Of a stretch of DNA of 64,000 nt, positions 2,393 through 10,463 are shown in pieces. A program made the position numbers and the translations under genes. Each line of letters starts with the position of its first letter. Within the stretch, counting starts at the first letter, position 1. The notes under the pieces were generated by a model that was not told where the DNA came from, searched no databases, and was given only the letters and a program-made list of their open reading frames with translations. Source of the DNA: Mycobacterium sp. 4858 (GTDB lineage Bacteria; Actinomycetota; Actinomycetes; Mycobacteriales; Mycobacteriaceae); the NCBI RefSeq assembly GCF_900240975.1, contig NZ_LT968775.1, positions 1,550,001-1,614,000 of the forward strand. The letters run 5' to 3'.

Positions 2393-2547
2393 TAGTAGCG
2401 GGTGGGTGTGACAAGTCGCCGGAGCGGCGGCCGGGCCCCCGAGTCGGGACTTTGCGCAGCCGCAAGGCCGGCCCAACGCGGACGGTTTGCGCCTAACCAA
2501 ACCGGGTACGCACCGAATGCGCTTCGGTCACGACGCGCCGTCGGGGC

Positions 2548-2654
2548 CACCTCGGTTGAAACACACAGCTGGGCGCTTACCAGTTCTCTGGGCAGCCATC
2601 GCGAGTCTTCATCGCGCTGGCTGCCTGAGCGTGTTTCGGTTCAAAAGTGAGGTG
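2548..2654. other. Non-coding stretch with a long nested hairpin
   Basis: Within the 417-nt gap 2385-2801 between two divergent genes. The core is GGCAGCCA (2591-2598) pairing with TGGCTGCC (2618-2625). Inside it CGCGA (2600-2604) pairs with TCGCG (2612-2616), giving 13 bp around a 7-nt loop with one T/C mismatch. Outer arms can also pair: CACCTC (2548) with GAGGTG (2649), and TTGAAACAC (2556) with GTGTTTC plus TTCAA (2631-2644). There is no T run, so it is not a classical terminator. It may be a 5'-UTR structure, a small RNA or the end of a mobile element. The rest of the gap shows only the RBS of the next gene. Confidence 0.5.
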
Positions 2655-2801
2655 ACGCATGGGCAAACCGCCCCGGACCGTCACGGCATGGCGTCGTTCT
2701 CGGTGTGCGGACCACCGCCCGCTCGCGTCATGCCCCACGGGCGCCACCCCGGCCAGTAACTCGGATGACCAGCGATCCACGAGCTAAAGGAAGGCAATCA
2801 A

Positions 2802-3281
2802 ATGTTGTTGTTAGGCAACGGCGGACGGCGCAAGCACGAGGCGATTCAGCTGGGCGAGCGGGCGTTGTACGACGTCGCGCACGGCCGCTTCGAACGCTCG
2901 CTGTCCGGGCTGACGGCCATGGCGGCCCTCGTGACCACGGCCGAGATCTATTTCGAGCACTACAAGGCGAGCTTCGGCAACAAGTGGATGTGGAGCCCGA
3001 TCGTGGTCACCCCGCCGGTGGTGGTCGCCGGAATCGGCGGGGGGTTCTCCCGGCGCTGGGCCAAACTCTGGCTGCCGATCACGGCCGGCATCTACACGGC
3101 CAACGGCCTCATGGGCGAATACCTGCACGCGCGCGGGGGGGCCCGCAAGCCCGGTGGATGGAAGAACGCGTCCTACAACGTGCCCATGGGCCCGCCGATC
3201 GCGGCGCCGGGGCTGATGTGCATGGTCGGCGGGATGGGGCTGCTGGCCTCGATCCTGCGACGCGAGCGGTTCCGGGGCTGA
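2802..3281 (+). CDS. Small membrane protein, first gene of the sugar-oxidation operon
   Basis: A 159-residue protein that I do not recognise as a named family. About four hydrophobic segments can be seen, near residues 36-53, 66-87, 92-112 and 134-154. They suggest a multi-pass inner-membrane protein with short basic loops. The start ATG follows AAAGGAAGG with good spacing. It lies 5 nt before the gluconate-dehydrogenase-subunit-3-like gene and so heads a tightly packed operon. A reasonable inference is a membrane anchor or electron-transfer partner for the downstream flavoprotein, since no cytochrome c subunit is encoded. No haem-binding CXXCH motif is present. Confidence 0.7.
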   Translation: MLLLGNGGRRKHEAIQLGERALYDVAHGRFERSLSGLTAMAALVTTAEIYFEHYKASFGNKWMWSPIVVTPPVVVAGIGGGFSRRWAKLWLPITAGIYTANGLMGEYLHARGGARKPGGWKNASYNVPMGPPIAAPGLMCMVGGMGLLASILRRERFRG

Positions 3282-3286
3282 GCGCG

Positions 3287-4033
3287 ATGGCAGACACCGC
3301 CCGCCCCGACCACCTGCCCAACCTGCGACCGGATCGCAAACCCCCGCACCCGTCCTGGCTGCCCAGACAACGCCGCGGGACCACGCCCCAAATGATCGGG
3401 CGCTACCCGGATTTCGACGTGCTGGAGACGGCCGACACCTGGGACGAGGCCACCAAGAAGGTGGTGCTGGCCCGGCTGGAGCCGCCCGGGCCGCTGCGGT
3501 TCTTCACCGCCGACGAGGAGCCGTGCCTGCGCGCGTTCTGTGACACCGTGCTCGCCCAGGACACCGAGCCGCGGGTGCCCGTGCCCGAGTCGGTCGACTC
3601 CAAGCTCGCCGACGGCCGGCTCGACGGCTACCAGTACGCCGACATGCCCGACGACCGCGACACCTGGCGGCTGGTGCTGCGGGCGCTGGACGAGACCGCG
3701 TCCCGCCGCTACGGCAAGGCCTCGTTCGCCGACGCGGAGCCCGACACCCGCGAGGCGATCATCGACCGGTTCTCCGACGGCGCCCTGGACGGTGGCACCT
3801 GGGAGCGCCTCAACGTCAAGCGCGCGTGGTCGGTGTGCATGCGAATGGTGTTGTCCGGGTTCTACTCTCACCCCTGGGCATGGAACGAGATCGGATTCGG
3901 GGGCCCGGCCTACCCGCGCGGGTTCATGCGCCTGGGCGGCGCCACCGGGGATGCCGCGGCCCGCGAACCATTCGAGACGAGGGGCGCCACGGACGAGGAC
4001 CCGGTCCGCGTGGTGCAACACGGTGAACTGTGA
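3287..4033 (+). CDS. Gluconate 2-dehydrogenase subunit 3-like protein
   Basis: A 248-residue protein resembling the small (gamma, subunit 3) chain that accompanies GMC-type membrane-bound sugar dehydrogenases. Visible features are the FFTADEEPCLRAFCDTVLA segment near residues 68-86 and the C-terminal YSHPWAWNEIGFGGPAYPRGF region, typical of the family. I see no Tat or Sec signal, whereas many homologues are exported. The ATG at 3287 follows the previous stop by 5 nt. Its TGA overlaps the GMC gene start as TGATG, so the two are probably translationally coupled and form one complex. The direct electron acceptor is not evident. Confidence 0.75.
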   Translation: MADTARPDHLPNLRPDRKPPHPSWLPRQRRGTTPQMIGRYPDFDVLETADTWDEATKKVVLARLEPPGPLRFFTADEEPCLRAFCDTVLAQDTEPRVPVPESVDSKLADGRLDGYQYADMPDDRDTWRLVLRALDETASRRYGKASFADAEPDTREAIIDRFSDGALDGGTWERLNVKRAWSVCMRMVLSGFYSHPWAWNEIGFGGPAYPRGFMRLGGATGDAAAREPFETRGATDEDPVRVVQHGEL

Positions 4034-5736
4034 TGGGTGACCGACTCCGCGGACTGCTCAGGGGAGCCGTCGGGCCCAAGGACAACGAATCGCGGTTCCT
4101 GCTCGACGTGCACTCGCGCGACCTGCCCGGCGAGAAGACCATGCAGCGCTACCGCGACGACGACGAGGTCGACCTGGTGGTCGTCGGCGCCGGCGCCGGC
4201 GGATCGGTGCTCGCCCAGCGCCTCGCGCGGGCCGGCTGGCGGGTCGTCATCCTCGAGGCGGGCCCGTTCTGGCACCCCGACGAGGACTGGGTGTCCGATG
4301 AGGCGGGTTCGCACGCGCTGTACTGGACGCAGAAGCGCATCATCGGCGGTGAGGACCCGATCGAGCTGGGCAAGAACAACTCCGGGCGTGGGGGGGGCGG
4401 CTCGATGGTCCACTACGCCGGCTACACGCCGCGGGTCCATCCCAGCGACTTCCACACCTACACCCTCGACGGTGTAGGGGCGGACTGGCCGATCCGCTAC
4501 GAGGACGTCCGCCCGCATTACGAGCGGATCGAGCTGGAGCTGCCGGTCGCCGGGCAGAACTGGCCCTGGGGCTACCCGCATCGTTATTCCTTTTCCCCGC
4601 ACCCGATTTCGGGCGCGGCCGCCAAGCTGTGGCGGGGCGCCATGCAGCTAGGCATCGAGATGCGGGTGGGGCCCGTCGGCATCGTCAACGGGACCTTCGG
4701 TAACCGCCCGCACTGCATCTACCGCGGTTACTGCCTGCAGGGCTGCAAGGTCAACGCCAAAGCCAGCCCGTACGTCACGCACCTGCCCGACGCGCTGGCC
4801 CACGCCGTGGAGGTGCGCGCCCATTGCATGGCGGCGCGCGTCGAACTCGACGACAGCGGCGCCGCACGGGGGGTGGTCTATTACGACGAAGTGGGCGGGA
4901 ACGAACGGCTGCAGCGGGCCAAGGTCGTCGCGATCGCCGGGTACTCCATCGAGACGCCGCGGTTGCTGCTGAACTCGGCCAGCGAGCGCTTCCCGAACGG
5001 GTTGGGCAACAACGACGACCAGGTCGGTCGCTACGTGATGGTGCAGGGCGCCACGCAGTCGGCGGGCCGGTGGTCGGAAGAGGTCCGGATGTACAAGGCG
5101 CCACCCCCGGAGGTGTCCTCGGAGCAGTTCTACGAGACGGACCCGTCCCGCGGGTTCGCCCGCGGCTTCGCCATCCAGACCGTGTCCCCCATGCCGATCG
5201 GCTGGGCCGAACACGTGCTCGCCGACGGGCATTGGGGGCGGGCGTTGCGGGAGTACATGCGCGACTACAACCACTGGGCGACCATCGGCGTGCTCAACGA
5301 GCTGTTGCCGCTGCCGGACAATCGGGTCACCCTCGCCCAGGAGACGGACGCGTACGGCATCCCGGTCGCCAGGTTCGACTACACGCTGTGCGACAACGAC
5401 AAGGCCAACATGGCCTACTCCACCAAGGTGATCGACGACATCCTGCACGCGTCGGGCGCCCAGGACGTGCTGACCATCGAACGGTTCGCCCACCTGATCG
5501 GGGGTGCGCGCATGGGCACCCGCCCGGACAACTCGGTGGTCGATTCCGACCACCGGGTGTGGGGCGTGCCGAACCTGTTCCTCACCGACGGCTCGGTCTG
5601 CCCGACGCAGGGCTCGGCGAACCCGGCGCTGACGATCATGGCGTTGGCTTCGCGGCTGGCCGAACGGATGGCGACCGGCAAGATCGGCAGGGACGCCCCG
5701 GCAAGCCGGCCGGCGAAGGCGGGGGTCCGTGTCTGA
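4033..5736 (+). CDS. GMC family FAD-dependent oxidoreductase (sugar/polyol dehydrogenase type)
   Basis: A 567-residue flavoprotein of the glucose-methanol-choline oxidoreductase superfamily. A Rossmann FAD-binding motif GAGAGG lies at residues 52-57, ending in an acidic ILEAG strand. A GRGGGGSMVHYAGYTPR segment is typical of the gluconate-dehydrogenase branch. The C-terminal GMC domain has LTDGSVCPTQGSANPALTIMA, which closes on FAD. Its partner is the subunit-3-like protein immediately upstream. An oxidation of a sugar or sugar acid with transfer of electrons to the membrane is likely from family and context. The substrate is not established. The ATG at 4033 is preferred over the overlapping GTG at 4030. 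The next gene overlaps its 3' end by 8 nt. Confidence 0.85.
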   Translation: MGDRLRGLLRGAVGPKDNESRFLLDVHSRDLPGEKTMQRYRDDDEVDLVVVGAGAGGSVLAQRLARAGWRVVILEAGPFWHPDEDWVSDEAGSHALYWTQKRIIGGEDPIELGKNNSGRGGGGSMVHYAGYTPRVHPSDFHTYTLDGVGADWPIRYEDVRPHYERIELELPVAGQNWPWGYPHRYSFSPHPISGAAAKLWRGAMQLGIEMRVGPVGIVNGTFGNRPHCIYRGYCLQGCKVNAKASPYVTHLPDALAHAVEVRAHCMAARVELDDSGAARGVVYYDEVGGNERLQRAKVVAIAGYSIETPRLLLNSASERFPNGLGNNDDQVGRYVMVQGATQSAGRWSEEVRMYKAPPPEVSSEQFYETDPSRGFARGFAIQTVSPMPIGWAEHVLADGHWGRALREYMRDYNHWATIGVLNELLPLPDNRVTLAQETDAYGIPVARFDYTLCDNDKANMAYSTKVIDDILHASGAQDVLTIERFAHLIGGARMGTRPDNSVVDSDHRVWGVPNLFLTDGSVCPTQGSANPALTIMALASRLAERMATGKIGRDAPASRPAKAGVRV

Positions 5737-7519
5737 CCGCACGATCGATGTCGAGGTGACCTTTTCCCCGCGGGTGCTGCGCGAGTACGCGCTGCTCGCC
5801 GACGGCGAACGGGGCGCCCTGATCGGTCCGCAGGGCGACGTCGCGTGGATGTGCGCCCCGCGGTGGGATTCCGACGCCGTGTTCTCGAATCTCATTGGCG
5901 GCGATGGGGTTTACGCGATCACCCCGACCGACGTCCGGCACGTGTGGGGCGGCTATTACGAGCCGGGCACCCTGATCTGGCGCAACCGGTGGATCACCCG
6001 CGACGGCATCGTGGAATGCCGCGAGGCGCTGGCCTTCCCGGGCGATCCCGACCGGGTGGTGCTGCTGCGCCGGCTGATGGGCTGCCGCGGGACCGCGCGG
6101 GTGCGGCTGTTGCTGCAGCCGAGCGCCGCGTTCGGCCGGCACGGCTCCGGCGACCTGAGCGTCGACGACGGGGTGTGGAGCGGAAAGTCGGGGCGGTTAC
6201 GGTGGCGCTGGCTCGGCGGCTGCGACGCGCGCGCCGTCACCGGGGCGCGCGGCCACGGGGACGTGCTCGCCTGTGAGGTGACCGTCGACGAGGGCGGTCA
6301 GCACGACTTCGTCCTGGAGCTCTCCGAACGCGCGCTCCCCGACCGGCCGCCCGACCCCGACGTCGCCTGGGACGCAACGGAGGCCGCGTGGCACCGCAGC
6401 ATGCCCGAGCTGACCGGCACCGTCGCCCCGCGCGACGCGCGGCACTCCTACGCGGTGCTGCGCGGGCTGACCAGCAGCGGCGGCGGCATGGTCGCCGCCG
6501 CCACGATGAGCCTGCCCGAGCGCGCACACACCAACCAGAACTACGACTACCGCTACGCGTGGATCCGGGACCAGGTGTACGCCGGCATCGCCGCCGCCAG
6601 CGTCGGGGCGACCGAATTGCTGGACCGCGCGGTCGAATTCGTCGGCGGCCGGCTGCTGGAACACGGACCCGACCTCAAGCCGGCCTACACCGTCACGGGC
6701 GGCAGCGTGCCCAGCGAGCAAACCCTCGACCTGCCCGGCTACCCCGGCGGCACCGACAAGGTGGGCAACTGGGTCAACCAGCAATTCCAGCTCGACGTCT
6801 TCGGCGAGGCGCTGCAGCTGCTGGCCTGCGCGGGCCACGCCGGCCGGCTCGATGTCGAGGGCTGGCGCGCCGCGCAGGCCGCCATCGGCGCGATCGAAAA
6901 GCGTTGGCGGGAGCCGGACGCGGGGATCTGGGAGATCGACAACGAGCACTGGACGCAGTCCAGGCTGGCCTGTGTCGCCGGGCTGCGCGCCATCGCCAAG
7001 GTGGCGGGCGGCGGCACCGAGGTGGCCGCCAGCGCGTCGCTGGCCGACGCCATCCTGGCCGACACCGCCGCCGGCAGCCTGCACCCGCAGGGCGGCTACT
7101 GGCAACGCAGCCCGCGGCTGCCCGGAGTGGACGCGTCGCTGCTGCTGCCTCCCGTGCGCGGGGCCCTGCCCGTCGACGACCCGCGCACCCGCGCCACACT
7201 CGACGCCGTCCGCAGGCAGCTCAGCCACGACGGGTTCGTCTACCGCTTCCGGCACGACGAGCGCGACCTCGGCGACGCCGAGGGCGCCTTCCTGCTCTGC
7301 GGATTCATGATGGCGCTCGCCGAACACCAAATGGGCCATGCCCATTGCGCGATGCGCTGGTTCGAACGCAACCGCGCCGCCTGCGGGCCCCCCGGATTGT
7401 TCTGCGAGGAATACGACGTCAGGCAGCGCCAGCTGCGCGGCAACCTCCCCCAGGCCTTCGCGCACGCGCTGATGCTCGAATGCACGGCCACCCTCGCCGA
7501 CGACGCCCACCATGACTGA
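5729..7519 (+). CDS. Glycoside hydrolase family 15 protein
   Basis: A 596-residue GH15 enzyme: an N-terminal beta-sandwich, then an (alpha/alpha)6 barrel. Family members are glucoamylases, glucodextranases and, in mycobacteria, trehalases; all release glucose with inversion. Key visible motifs are NYDYRYAWIRDQVYA (about residue 271, substrate binding), GIWEID with the likely general acid E402, and the FCEEYD pair E560/E561 with the likely catalytic base. QLRGNLPQAFAHALML then closes the barrel. The GTG at 5729 overlaps the GMC gene, so the two are co-translated. No signal peptide is seen, which favours an intracellular substrate such as trehalose, maltooligosaccharide or a glucoside. It would supply the sugar for the neighbouring oxidoreductases. 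Confidence 0.88.
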   Translation: MSDRTIDVEVTFSPRVLREYALLADGERGALIGPQGDVAWMCAPRWDSDAVFSNLIGGDGVYAITPTDVRHVWGGYYEPGTLIWRNRWITRDGIVECREALAFPGDPDRVVLLRRLMGCRGTARVRLLLQPSAAFGRHGSGDLSVDDGVWSGKSGRLRWRWLGGCDARAVTGARGHGDVLACEVTVDEGGQHDFVLELSERALPDRPPDPDVAWDATEAAWHRSMPELTGTVAPRDARHSYAVLRGLTSSGGGMVAAATMSLPERAHTNQNYDYRYAWIRDQVYAGIAAASVGATELLDRAVEFVGGRLLEHGPDLKPAYTVTGGSVPSEQTLDLPGYPGGTDKVGNWVNQQFQLDVFGEALQLLACAGHAGRLDVEGWRAAQAAIGAIEKRWREPDAGIWEIDNEHWTQSRLACVAGLRAIAKVAGGGTEVAASASLADAILADTAAGSLHPQGGYWQRSPRLPGVDASLLLPPVRGALPVDDPRTRATLDAVRRQLSHDGFVYRFRHDERDLGDAEGAFLLCGFMMALAEHQMGHAHCAMRWFERNRAACGPPGLFCEEYDVRQRQLRGNLPQAFAHALMLECTATLADDAHHD

Positions 7520-7538
7520 CACGAAGGGAGATCAGGCG

Positions 7539-8555
7539 ATGACACCGACCACACAAACGATCGTGATCACCGGGGCCAGCGCCGGCATCGGCCGGGCCAC
7601 CGCCAAACTGTTCGGGCAGCGCGGGGCGAACGTCGCCCTGCTCGCCCGCGGGTCCGCCGGGCTGGACGGCGCCGCCCGCGACGTCGAATCCGGGGGCGGC
7701 AAGGCGCTGACCATCCCCACCGACGTGGCCGACCACGCGGCCGTCGTCGCCGCCGCCGACGAGACCGAGGCGGCCTTCGGACCCATCGACGTCTGGGTCA
7801 ACGTCGCATTCACCTCCGTGTTCGCGCCGTTCCACGAGATCAGCTCCGAGGAGTTCAAACGCGTGACCGAGGTGTCCTACCTCGGGTACGTGCACGGCAC
7901 GATGGCGGCCCTGGCCAAGATGCGGCCCCGCGACCGCGGCACCATCGTGCAGGTCGGTTCCGCGCTCAGCCAGCGATCCATCCCGCTGCAGTCGGCGTAC
8001 TGCGGCGCCAAGCACGCCATCAACGGGTTCACCGAATCGCTGCGCTGCGAGCTGCTGCACGAGCGCTCGAACGTGCGGGTCACGGTGGCCCAGATGCCCG
8101 CGGTCAACACCCCGCAGTTCTCCTGGGTGCTGTCCCGGCTGCCCCGCCATCCGCAACCGGTGCCGCCGATCTACCAGCCCGAGGTGGCCGCCCGCGGCGT
8201 CCTGTATGCCGCGGATCACCCTGGGCGCAAACAATATTGGGTCGGTGACAGTACCGCGGTGACGCTGCTGGCGCAGAAATTCGTGGCGCCGCTGCTGGAC
8301 CGTTACCTGGGCCGCACCGGGTACGACTCGCAGCAGACCGAGGAGCCCGTGCGCGCCGGGCGCCCGCACAACCTGTGGCAGCCGCTCGACGAGGAGCCGG
8401 GCAGCGACCACGGCGCCCACGGCGGGTTCGACGACAAATCGCACACGCTGAGCCCGCAACTGTGGGCGTCGCAGCACGCGATGATCAGCGGGGCCGGCGC
8501 GCTGGGCGCGGCGGGACTGGGCGGGTGGCTCGCCGCGCGCCGGTGGGCCCGATGA
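7539..8555 (+). CDS. Short-chain dehydrogenase/reductase with a C-terminal hydrophobic tail
   Basis: A 338-residue SDR. The NAD(P)-binding TGASAGIG motif is at residues 11-18, and the catalytic residues S141, Y154 and K158 (YCGAK) are present. The C-terminal extension of about 60 residues ends in a hydrophobic, Ala/Gly-rich segment with basic end residues, likely a membrane anchor. The ATG at 7539 is preferred because AAGGGAG lies 8 nt upstream; an in-frame ATG at 7512 overlaps the GH15 stop. The stop overlaps the enolase-family gene by ATGA. A role in oxidising or reducing a sugar-derived intermediate is inferred only from the operon. Confidence 0.85.
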   Translation: MTPTTQTIVITGASAGIGRATAKLFGQRGANVALLARGSAGLDGAARDVESGGGKALTIPTDVADHAAVVAAADETEAAFGPIDVWVNVAFTSVFAPFHEISSEEFKRVTEVSYLGYVHGTMAALAKMRPRDRGTIVQVGSALSQRSIPLQSAYCGAKHAINGFTESLRCELLHERSNVRVTVAQMPAVNTPQFSWVLSRLPRHPQPVPPIYQPEVAARGVLYAADHPGRKQYWVGDSTAVTLLAQKFVAPLLDRYLGRTGYDSQQTEEPVRAGRPHNLWQPLDEEPGSDHGAHGGFDDKSHTLSPQLWASQHAMISGAGALGAAGLGGWLAARRWAR

Positions 8556-9658
8556 GCGTCGACGCCCGCATCGACGACGTCACCGCCCAGTCCTACGAAA
8601 TCCCTACCGACGCACCGGAAGCCGACGGCACCCTGCCCTGGTCGTCGACCACGCTGGTGCTGGCCGAGGTCGCCGCCGGCGGGCGGCGCGGGATCGGCTA
8701 CACCTACGCCGACGGCGCGTGCGCGGAGTTGATCAACGGGCCGCTCGCCGGGACGCTCACCGGACACGGCGCCCTGGACATCACCGGTCGGTGGCAGGCG
8801 ATGGTCCGGGCGATGCGCAACAACGGACGGCCGGGGCTGGTGTCGTGCGCCGTCTCGGCCGTCGACACCGCCCTGTGGGACCTCAAGGGCAAGCTGCTGG
8901 ACCTGCCGGTGTGCCGGCTACTCGGCATGGCACACGACGCGGTCCCGATCTACGGCAGCGGCGGGTTCACCCCCTACGACGAGCGTCAGACCCCCGCCCA
9001 GCTCGAACGCTGGGTGGGCGAGTGGAAGATCCCGCGCGTCAAGATCAAGATCGGCGAGTCGTGGGGCTCCGACGAGCGCCGCGACCTGGACCGGATTGCG
9101 CTGTCCCGCAAGGTGGTCGGGCCCGACGTCGAACTGTATGTCGACGCCAACGGCGGCTACCGCCGCAAGCAGGCGATCCGGGTGGCCCACGCCATGGCCG
9201 ACCACGACGTCACCTGGTTCGAAGAGCCCGTCTCGTCCGACGACCTGGCCGGGCTGAACGAGGTCCGCGACCAGGTGACCCCGGACGTCACCGCCGGCGA
9301 GTACGGTTACGACCTGGCCTACTTCAACCGGATGCTCGCCGCCGGGGCGGTCGACTGCCTGCAGATCGACGTCACCCGCTGCGGCGGCATCACCGACTGG
9401 CTGCGGGCCGCAGCGGTGGCCGCCGCCCACAACGTCGACGTGTCCGGGCACTGCGCCCCCAACCTGCACGCCCACGTGGCCAGCGCCATCCCCAACCTGC
9501 GCCACCTGGAGTACTTCCACGATCACCACCGCATCGAACACCTGCTGTTCGACGGCGCGCTGGCCCCCGACGGCGGCGCGCTGCGGCCGGATCAGCGCCG
9601 GCCGGGTCTGGGCCTGGAGTTCAAACGCGCCGACGCCGAGCACTACCGGAAATCCTGA
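8552..9658 (+). CDS. Enolase superfamily (mandelate racemase subgroup) acid-sugar dehydratase-like protein
   Basis: A 368-residue enolase-superfamily enzyme with all mandelate-racemase-subgroup residues. The KIK bases are K164 and K166. The metal ligands are D198 (VDANGG), E224 (FEEPV) and E250 (AGEYG). The catalytic dyad is D273 with H300 (GHCAPN). These spacings are almost identical to mandelate racemase. Most bacterial members with this set dehydrate aldonic acids to 2-keto-3-deoxy acids, and the upstream sugar-oxidising genes fit that role. The ATG at 8552 overlaps the SDR stop by ATGA. The exact acid sugar cannot be read from the sequence. It is the last gene of the operon. Confidence 0.87.
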   Translation: MSVDARIDDVTAQSYEIPTDAPEADGTLPWSSTTLVLAEVAAGGRRGIGYTYADGACAELINGPLAGTLTGHGALDITGRWQAMVRAMRNNGRPGLVSCAVSAVDTALWDLKGKLLDLPVCRLLGMAHDAVPIYGSGGFTPYDERQTPAQLERWVGEWKIPRVKIKIGESWGSDERRDLDRIALSRKVVGPDVELYVDANGGYRRKQAIRVAHAMADHDVTWFEEPVSSDDLAGLNEVRDQVTPDVTAGEYGYDLAYFNRMLAAGAVDCLQIDVTRCGGITDWLRAAAVAAAHNVDVSGHCAPNLHAHVASAIPNLRHLEYFHDHHRIEHLLFDGALAPDGGALRPDQRRPGLGLEFKRADAEHYRKS

Positions 9659-9734
9659 TCCGATGAATGGACTCCCGCAAAAGTGGGCATTGATATGCGG
9701 AGGACATAGTTACGGATCTGAAGGACAGCCCACG

Positions 9735-10463
9735 ATGACCGTGAACTTTGACGACGAAGCCGTGCAGGGACGCAACGGGGACTCCGCCGACGACGGTTCG
9801 GCGGCCTCGGCGTGTGAGGCGTTCATGTCCGACGCCGTCGACGAGCAAGACCTCAACGCGGTCGATTTGGTTCTGGGCCTGGGCGAGCCGCAGAGCGTCG
9901 GCCGGTTCCGGTTCTTCCTGGACGGGCACCGCTGGGAGTGGTCACCGGCGGTCGCCCGCATGCACGGCTACCAGCCGGGGCAGGTGGAGCCCACCACGGA
10001 CCTGCTGCTCAAGCACAAGCACCCTGAAGACCGCGATCGCGTCGCGGCCGTCCTCGACCGCGTCATGCGGGGCAAGGCGTTCAGCAGCCGCCACCGCATC
10101 ATCGACACCGGCGGGCGCACCCACTGCGTGGTCGTCGCGGGCGACCGGATGCTCGACGACAGCGGGACCCTGGTCGGGACGTCCGGTTTCTACGTCGACG
10201 TCACCGATTCGCTGCAGACCGACATCAACAACGTGCTGTCGGCGGTCGCCGACGCCCGCGCCCGCATCGAGCAGGCCAAGGGCGTGCTGATGGCCGCCTA
10301 CGGCATCTCCGCGGAGCGGGCGTTCGACATTTTGGTGTGGCGTTCCCAGGAGACCAACCTGAAACTGCGCGACCTCGCCGGCCGCTTTCTGGGCGCCCTG
10401 GCCAGCCAGGCGTCGGCGGAGACCCAACGCGAAATCGACCGGGCGCTGCTGACCCTCCAATAG
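9735..10463 (+). CDS. PAS-ANTAR RNA-binding regulator
   Basis: A 242-residue regulator. Residues of about 45-160 form a PAS_3-type sensor (FRFFLDGHRWEWSPAVARMHGY, ending in GTSGFYVDVTD). Residues of about 170-235 form an ANTAR domain (RIEQAKGVLMAAYGISAERAFDILVWRS, then LRDLAGRFL), a three-helix RNA-binding module that causes antitermination at paired hexaloop hairpins. There is no receiver domain, so input probably comes through PAS. The ATG at 9735 is preferred because GAAGGA lies 9 nt upstream; an in-frame ATG at 9663 adds 24 unconserved residues. It follows the sugar operon by 76 nt and could regulate it, but no paired ANTAR hairpins were found. Confidence 0.85.
   Translation: MTVNFDDEAVQGRNGDSADDGSAASACEAFMSDAVDEQDLNAVDLVLGLGEPQSVGRFRFFLDGHRWEWSPAVARMHGYQPGQVEPTTDLLLKHKHPEDRDRVAAVLDRVMRGKAFSSRHRIIDTGGRTHCVVVAGDRMLDDSGTLVGTSGFYVDVTDSLQTDINNVLSAVADARARIEQAKGVLMAAYGISAERAFDILVWRSQETNLKLRDLAGRFLGALASQASAETQREIDRALLTLQ

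Follow-up and report, generated by a model that had tools for sequence, protein, structure and literature searches.

A conserved mycobacterial gene cluster as a candidate for phosphate-free sugar oxidation with a cytochrome-free flavodehydrogenase

How might a mycobacterium draw electrons from a sugar without first phosphorylating it? The question is raised by six tightly packed genes on the forward strand at positions 2802–9658 of a 64,000-nucleotide stretch of DNA (the window; contig NZ_LT968775.1, positions 1,550,001 to 1,614,000) from the 5.6-Mb genome of Mycobacterium sp. 4858. These genes encode a membrane protein (MP), a gluconate 2-dehydrogenase subunit 3 family protein (G2D3), the catalytic subunit of a flavin adenine dinucleotide (FAD) dehydrogenase (GMC), a glycosidase (GH15), a short-chain dehydrogenase/reductase (SDR), and a mandelate-racemase-like enzyme of the enolase superfamily (MR). 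An initial annotation of the window read them in order as a possible route that releases glucose, oxidizes it to an aldonate, and dehydrates the aldonate to a 2-keto-3-deoxy acid. Comparison across genomes established that the six genes form a conserved unit and that, of the partners seen in this work, none follows MR as closely as a thiamine pyrophosphate (TPP) enzyme, which this genome encodes elsewhere. Operon and TPP enzyme together may constitute a phosphate-free sugar oxidation in which glucose becomes an aldonate and the aldonate in turn a 2-keto-3-deoxy acid that is then decarboxylated, a reading that we prefer while giving it somewhat less than an even chance. As far as sequence can tell, the annotated idea is right in outline, being largely supported and incomplete.

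A conserved six-gene operon

Gene starts and junctions were checked in the window (Table 1). Four of the five junctions overlap by 1–8 bases when the SDR start is placed at 7512, and 5 bases separate MP from G2D3; the initial description of six overlapping genes thus went slightly too far. Alternative starts are available for GMC (GTG at 4030) and SDR (ATG at 7539), the latter leaving a 19-base gap after GH15. The protein families originally named were confirmed by Pfam and NCBIfam, and SDR could be placed in subfamily PRK07109.

The nearest named relatives of MR are those of Mycobacterium europaeum (94%) and M. seoulense (93%), followed by the M. scrofulaceum group. Among 40 close loci, defined by MR at 80% identity or more, the complete set occurs in identical order in 36, and in the other four (L038, L040, L044, L052) the contig ends 433–4609 bases from MR on its upstream side. 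Such conservation in relatives indicates that the arrangement in the window is not due to chance, and the outcome named beforehand as refuting the idea, homologues always found apart, did not occur. Two of the 36 loci look decayed, and the cluster therefore seems dispensable in some lineages: several genes of M. lepraemurium (L069) were matched only in truncated form, and the best GH15 match in one M. interjectum record (L059) spans residues 476–596 only.

Table 1. Features of the operon and its surroundings (window coordinates)
Feature	Position	Strand	Family or remark
MP, membrane protein, 159 aa	2802–3281	+	no Pfam family
G2D3, gluconate 2-dehydrogenase subunit 3 family, 248 aa	3287–4033	+	PF13618
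GMC, FAD dehydrogenase catalytic subunit, 567 aa	4033–5736	+	PF00732/PF05199
GH15, glycosidase with trehalase-like N-terminal domain, 596 aa	5729–7519	+	PF00723 + PF19291
SDR, 347 aa	7512–8555	+	PF00106; subfamily PRK07109 (NF005495)
MR, enolase-superfamily, mandelate-racemase-like, 368 aa	8552–9658	+	PF13378/PF02746
PAS-ANTAR protein gene	9663–10463	+	PF03861 and PF08447; starts 5 bases 3′ of MR
SigF-type promoter GGTTT-N15-GGGTA	2484–2508	+	predicted; GTTT-N15-GGGTA (notation of the M. smegmatis SigF table) at 2485–2508
Long leader	2515–2801	+	start placed from the predicted promoter

A wider cluster around MR

More remote relatives were compared as well. In all, 136 loci were used: the 40 close loci, 86 distant loci in which MR is 48–75% identical, and 10 that carry GMC without MR on the same stretch, two of which (L187 and L188) come from genomes with MR on another contig. 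Loci L001–L031 (about 3–4 kb each) and L132–L160 are excluded from the counts, and two pairs of equal length (L161/L083 and L162/L087) are probably the same records. Within the genus there are 37 more distant MR genomes, with gene order taken from 20 of them (21 loci). After removal of near-identical cases, 83 distant loci remained, around which tblastn located the TPP enzyme (63 loci), an FAD/Fe–S dehydrogenase (48), GH15 (41), SDR (34), GMC (22), G2D3 (19), MP (19), and a glucose 1-dehydrogenase homologue (GDH, 8), all of these being lower bounds because many contigs are short. The FAD/Fe–S partner is a dehydrogenase of ∼1000 residues of the D-lactate/glycolate dehydrogenase type. At least one of the TPP enzyme, FAD/Fe–S dehydrogenase, GMC, GH15, SDR, and GDH was present at 77 of the 83. 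Where MR is flanked by 4.5 kb or more on each side (64 distant loci), the TPP enzyme was found in 55, the FAD/Fe–S dehydrogenase in 41, GH15 in 37, SDR in 29, and the MP-G2D3-GMC triad in 15.

Several gene orders are common. TPP-MR-FAD/Fe–S is seen, for example, in Halomonas, Nitrospira, Noviherbaspirillum, a planctomycete bin, and several actinomycetes; mycobacterial loci L128–L131 display TPP-MP-G2D3-GMC-MR, and a Chloroflexota bin (L111) displays TPP-MR-MP-G2D3-GMC. Judged by organism name, hosts with such MR neighbors presumably belong to the Actinomycetota, Pseudomonadota, Nitrospirota, Chloroflexota, Planctomycetota, Gemmatimonadota, and Acidobacteriota, several of these hosts being metagenome bins, which may be mislabeled. 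The initial annotation knew of no such route described in mycobacteria; parts of the gene set recur close to a TPP enzyme gene in at least seven phyla and are not restricted to that genus. The annotation missed the TPP enzyme and the FAD/Fe–S dehydrogenase of the wider cluster.

The TPP enzyme gene is absent from the operon in the window. A single copy above the PRK08273 cutoff (1017.7 bits vs 724) lies elsewhere in the same genome, at C8:833263-835044. In 148 congeneric genomes, the enzyme is encoded by 55 of the 56 MR carriers and by 32 of the 92 others (Fisher p about 2e-16; p-values are overstated because related species are not independent samples). Fragmentary MR matches in G064 and G091 were scored as MR-negative, and both genomes have the TPP enzyme. 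It is retained in 19/19 genomes whose cluster is of the same type as in the window; the sole MR carrier that lacks it (G031) has a split MR, with two neighboring fragments in different frames. The TPP gene of one close relative (L063) sits just upstream of MP, the gene centers being 1.6 kb apart. Among solved structures, a mycobacterial copy is most closely related to pyruvate dehydrogenase [cytochrome] (3ey9, 268.8 bits).

The FAD/Fe–S dehydrogenase follows MR more loosely, occurring in 26 of the 56 MR carriers (E ≤ 1e-100), and no homologue was detected in the genome of the window, where the best match reached 45.7 bits. Its gene directly adjoins the TPP gene in G017, G062, and G100, as judged from coordinates. 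This adjacency suggests that MR left an ancestral TPP-MR-FAD/Fe–S operon and joined the GMC operon.

Other genes were also seen near MR. DNA repair genes of the LigD primase type adjoin MR in the actinobacterial loci L080, L082, and L090 (assigned by eye), and a gene labeled by eye as molybdopterin oxidoreductase-like is near MR in L077, L096, L119, L123, L125, L126, and L177.

A predicted flavodehydrogenase complex without cytochrome c

Which enzyme would perform the oxidation? G2D3 scores 84.1 bits against PF13618 (cutoff 23.4), and the best solved match of GMC is a glucose dehydrogenase (1.4e-51). GMC carries the His/Asn pair H487/N530 together with C228, C234, and C238, which are retained in 63 of 63 aligned rows and align with Cys212, Cys218, and Cys222 of Burkholderia cepacia glucose dehydrogenase. 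In PMC6719666, these three B. cepacia residues are described as the ligands of a 3Fe-4S cluster and Cys213 as linked by a bond to the small subunit; the secretion signal of such complexes is predicted to reside in their small subunits. At the place of Cys213, GMC has Ile229. Neither G2D3 nor GMC of the window begins with a hydrophobic, signal-like segment, nor do the listed homologues by eye, and no 19-residue segment among the first 60 residues of G2D3 exceeds a hydropathy of −0.36. Ile229 and the missing signals fit a cytoplasmic enzyme, and the complex is probably cytoplasmic, in keeping with the export signals originally reported as lacking, a claim borne out here for the G2D3 and GMC N-termini.

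One could instead regard GMC as an MftG-like alcohol or mycofactocin dehydrogenase, since by E-value MftG leads its NCBIfam matches. The score of 79.3 bits is, however, far below the cutoff of 387.45, and the iron–sulfur cysteines and the G2D3 partner are those of sugar dehydrogenases, which leaves this identity with next to no credence.

The absence of a cytochrome c partner, a second original claim, was corroborated: no CxxCH motif, as expected of the multiheme cytochrome c of glucose and fructose dehydrogenase complexes, occurs in any of the six proteins, and both MP and G2D3 accompany GMC in 19 of the 22 GMC-bearing distant loci, including 15/15 with full flanks. The three loci without them are contigs of 3.5–4.9 kb. 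MP has no Pfam match and 3546 homologues at E ≤ 1e-5; its AlphaFold2 model (mean pLDDT 83.5) contains four helices of 22 residues or more. It has one cysteine, and H53 and H109 show no variation across 42 rows or, by eye, in more remote sequences. MP is predicted to be the third partner of the GMC complex, replacing the cytochrome c, and its H53 and H109 may form a site for heme b or quinone. The flavodehydrogenase is thus likely anchored to the membrane.

Related gene sets exist away from MR. GMC-G2D3 pairs or MP triads were seen in L190–L194 and L196, from Actinomycetota of about 50% G+C; MP lies beside GMC and G2D3 in L191, L193, and L196, L195 has MP and GMC with G2D3 not detected, and in L192 and L194 the GMC-G2D3 pair is flanked by a small cysteine-rich protein, MP not being found. 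In a Nitrospira bin (L102:3152-3967), a single reading frame contains two copies of MP, each with the two histidine motifs by eye.

Predicted dehydratase, glycosidase, and SDR

MR has K164, K166, D198, E224, E250, D273, and H300 at exactly the positions first given for them, and in an alignment of 126 rows that includes the window each of the seven is retained in at least 125. They comprise a K-x-K motif, three acidic metal ligands, and an Asp-His dyad, which we take to be the motif set of enolase-superfamily aldonate dehydratases. MR is predicted to be an aldonate dehydratase. Its closest solved relative (3cyj, 355.9 bits) is described as a "mandelate racemase/muconate lactonizing enzyme-like protein".

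GH15 scores 141.3 bits against PF00723 and 52 bits against PF19291. E402 and E560, presumably the two catalytic glutamates, are each retained in 76 of 77 rows, and E561 in 74 of 77. SDR passes the PRK07109 cutoff (488.7 vs 264).

The sugar itself may differ from glucose. The substrate of GH15 could be trehalose, a glucosylated solute, or a glycan, and that of MR another acid sugar, such as galactonate, talarate, or a uronate product. The trehalase-like N-terminal domain of GH15 is consistent with this alternative, and the trehalase TreH1 is the best NCBIfam match of GH15, although at 180.6 bits it is far below the cutoff of 820. A second GH15 in the same genome (G000:C7:444994-446802, 32% identical) may be the ordinary trehalase, and the best score of MR is with a talarate/galactarate dehydratase, again far below its cutoff. 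Against it, six mycobacterial loci (L113, L115–L118, L124) have GDH in line with GH15, the TPP enzyme, and MR, an arrangement that points to glucose; one GDH copy was searched and matched solved glucose dehydrogenases, the best being 2b5w (1.6e-48). We consider a different sugar quite improbable.

A scan of neighboring proteins (104 of 199 listed) identified two aldose 1-epimerases. The comparative context of GDH and aldose epimerases thus points to an aldose route. For the glucose-to-aldonate step as first conceived, the aldose character is upheld by GDH (8/86 distant loci), the epimerases, and the glucose/fructose dehydrogenase type of GMC. Also passed over was that an Eda-family aldolase to end the route was not found: no PF01081 match was obtained in the genome of the window. 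PF00701 gave one strong match (264 bits) and one weak (48.8), neither of them near the operon.

Predicted promoter, leader, and the regulon alternative

The initial account had likewise missed a SigF-type promoter upstream of MP (Table 1). GGGTA occupies the aligned columns in 32 of 34 upstream regions (that of the window among them), the promoter boxes have a mean column identity of 0.87 vs 0.55 for the spacer, and the strict SigF pattern occurs in 15 of the 34, with a mean of 0.29 for first-order random sequences. Table 1 of PMC4694148 gives the GTTT-N15-GGGTA form for many SigF-dependent genes of M. smegmatis. The operon is likely under general-stress (SigF) control, to judge from this conserved pattern.

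Just 3′ of the predicted promoter, conservation is strong over the first ∼90 bases of the leader (2515–2600) in an alignment of 22 sequences that includes the window. Covariation gave no support for a structure, and no Rfam family matched the leader at cutoff. The gene 3′ of MR codes for a PAS-ANTAR protein, with a homologue in this place in 4/4 close loci mapped. ANTAR proteins act on leader RNAs, an activity worth noting beside a long conserved leader and a downstream gene of this kind. The PAS-ANTAR gene is possibly cotranscribed with the operon; we do not claim that it belongs to the pathway.

Stress control also invites the thought that the genes are adjacent merely as one island of the general-stress regulon, with no single pathway behind them. 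Besides the promoter, the neighbors elsewhere fit this view, with SpoIIE, STAS, hemerythrin, and LigD families making up two or three each of the 104 scanned proteins, and the TPP gene in the genome of the window has neighbors that, judged by eye from their translations, encode topoisomerase, hemerythrin, and STAS proteins. The translational packing of the six genes argues against it, as do the median distance of 1.5 kb between TPP and MR centers in distant loci having both and the genome-wide co-occurrence of the two even when unlinked. A mere regulon island is very unlikely on balance.

The proposed route and the carbon oxidized

In the phosphate-free route that we prefer, GH15 would likely release glucose, and a G2D3-GMC-MP complex would oxidize it to the aldonate. 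Electrons would pass from FAD to the 3Fe-4S cluster, to MP, and on to menaquinone at the cytoplasmic side, with MP standing in for the three-heme cytochrome c, perhaps via H53 and H109. MR would then dehydrate the aldonate to the 2-keto-3-deoxy acid, and the TPP enzyme would decarboxylate it; being PoxB-like, this enzyme may convert the 2-keto acid to CO2 and a carboxylate or aldehyde, passing electrons to quinone. SDR may act on a carbonyl intermediate. SigF would turn the route on in general stress, so that a stored or scavenged glucoside could feed respiration without ATP-dependent phosphorylation. The comparisons themselves establish the order of the genes and how well it is kept, the protein families, the retention of catalytic residues and iron–sulfur ligands, the co-occurrence of MR with the TPP enzyme, and a conserved SigF-type promoter; these, the glucose dehydrogenase and epimerase neighbors, and the Eda-family aldolase looked for and not found speak for the predicted route.

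A more far-reaching version, which we regard as rather unlikely in its entirety, would be a stress pathway found across phyla in which electrons of glucose reach the quinones with neither phosphate nor CoA involved. MP, as a new membrane subunit of a cytochrome-free flavodehydrogenase, would carry heme b or quinone at H53/H109, gluconate would arise on the cytoplasmic face, MR would form 2-keto-3-deoxygluconate, and the PoxB-like oxidase would replace any aldolase and decarboxylate this acid to a 2-deoxy C5 acid or sugar.

The main rival concerns the carbon oxidized. GMC, G2D3, and MP could instead form an aldonate 2-dehydrogenase, akin to gluconate 2-dehydrogenase, that fills the role which the FAD/Fe–S dehydrogenase has at other loci; the TPP enzyme would turn the 2-keto-aldonate into a pentose or pentonate, and MR would epimerize or dehydrate the acid before or after. 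In its favor, GMC and the FAD/Fe–S dehydrogenase, which is of the D-2-hydroxyacid dehydrogenase type, replace each other at MR loci, often beside MR, and the latter is present at 7 of 8 GDH loci. The best solved relative of GMC is nevertheless a glucose dehydrogenase, although the 60 solved relatives listed include no gluconate 2-dehydrogenase, and MR is paired with the TPP enzyme in nearly every carrier genome but with the FAD/Fe–S dehydrogenase in fewer than half. We judge this C2 alternative unlikely. Oxidation of glucose at C1 is kept as the leading reading and oxidation of gluconate at C2 as its main rival.

Several observations weigh against the preferred route. At the 83 distant MR loci, GMC and the FAD/Fe–S dehydrogenase alternate (4 have both, 18 GMC only, 44 FAD/Fe–S only, 17 neither; p 2.6e-5), and the pattern persists when the set is thinned at 70% MR identity, which leaves 39 loci (2, 8, 23, and 6, respectively; p 0.0015). 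GDH is found at 0/22 GMC-bearing MR loci, an exclusion that is not significant (p 0.10). That GMC excludes the FAD/Fe–S dehydrogenase more clearly than GDH favors oxidation of an aldonate over that of glucose. The exclusion does not extend to whole genomes: an FAD/Fe–S homologue is encoded elsewhere in 6 of the 19 genomes that have a cluster like that of the window, which tells against the C2 rival, and G087 and G093 combine the triad at MR with an FAD/Fe–S gene at another place, which speaks against strict replacement. Six of the 83 loci lack any partner, two of them (L079, L104) on short stretches. MR is below every NCBIfam dehydratase cutoff, the best being talarate/galactarate dehydratase (TalGalacDh, 186.5 vs 500), and reaches 107.6 against a cutoff of 750 with the gluconate/galactonate dehydratase model. 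MP is only moderately hydrophobic, and a search with its fold gave nothing informative. The TPP enzyme may have another job, given its presence in the 32 genomes without MR, and the SigF pattern was not found upstream of its gene in the genome of the window. Lastly, the SigF consensus spacer quoted in PMC7693655 is 16–17 bases, one base longer at the least than that of the operon. The substrate (glucose) and the position oxidized by GMC are the least certain steps.

Relation to known systems and significance

The operon shares with glucose and fructose dehydrogenase complexes (B. cepacia glucose dehydrogenase, of γαβ composition, and fructose dehydrogenase) a GMC subunit, a small PF13618 subunit, the C-x5-C-x3-C ligands of a 3Fe-4S cluster, and the His/Asn pair. 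It differs in having the four-helix MP instead of a cytochrome c, no signal on the small subunit, Ile229 for Cys213, and a probably cytoplasmic location. Because two defining features, the cytochrome c and the secretion signal, were looked for and found missing, we do not class it with these complexes and file the cluster as a putative variant of nonphosphorylative sugar oxidation with a cytochrome-free GMC complex.

The nonphosphorylative Entner–Doudoroff pathway consists of glucose dehydrogenase, gluconate dehydratase, and 2-keto-3-deoxygluconate aldolase. Aldose oxidation and an enolase-superfamily dehydratase candidate recall this pathway, as does the homologue of archaeal-type glucose dehydrogenase at 8 distant loci. 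In contrast to it, no Eda aldolase was found in the genome of the window, a PoxB-like TPP enzyme accompanies MR, and the oxidation predicted for the window is quinone-linked. The TPP enzyme is homologous to the pyruvate:quinone oxidoreductase PoxB over nearly its whole length (3ey9) but belongs to a separate subfamily, PRK08273, tied to MR. The nearest solved relative of MR, 3cyj, which we take to come from Rubrobacter xylanophilus, bears a generic name only. Among the papers listed by a literature search, none was found to assign 3cyj a function. The promoter form matches that of many SigF-dependent M. smegmatis genes in the regulon table cited above, which places the operon beside the mycobacterial SigF regulon.

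One testable pathway would join uncharacterized families that turn up repeatedly in hosts as different as mycobacteria, Nitrospira, and Halomonas, namely the "thiamine pyrophosphate-requiring protein", the 3cyj-type enolase-superfamily enzymes, and a membrane protein without a Pfam family. If the route holds, stressed or starved bacteria would respire sugar without ATP cost, and a cytochrome-free branch would be added to the sugar dehydrogenases studied for glucose sensors.

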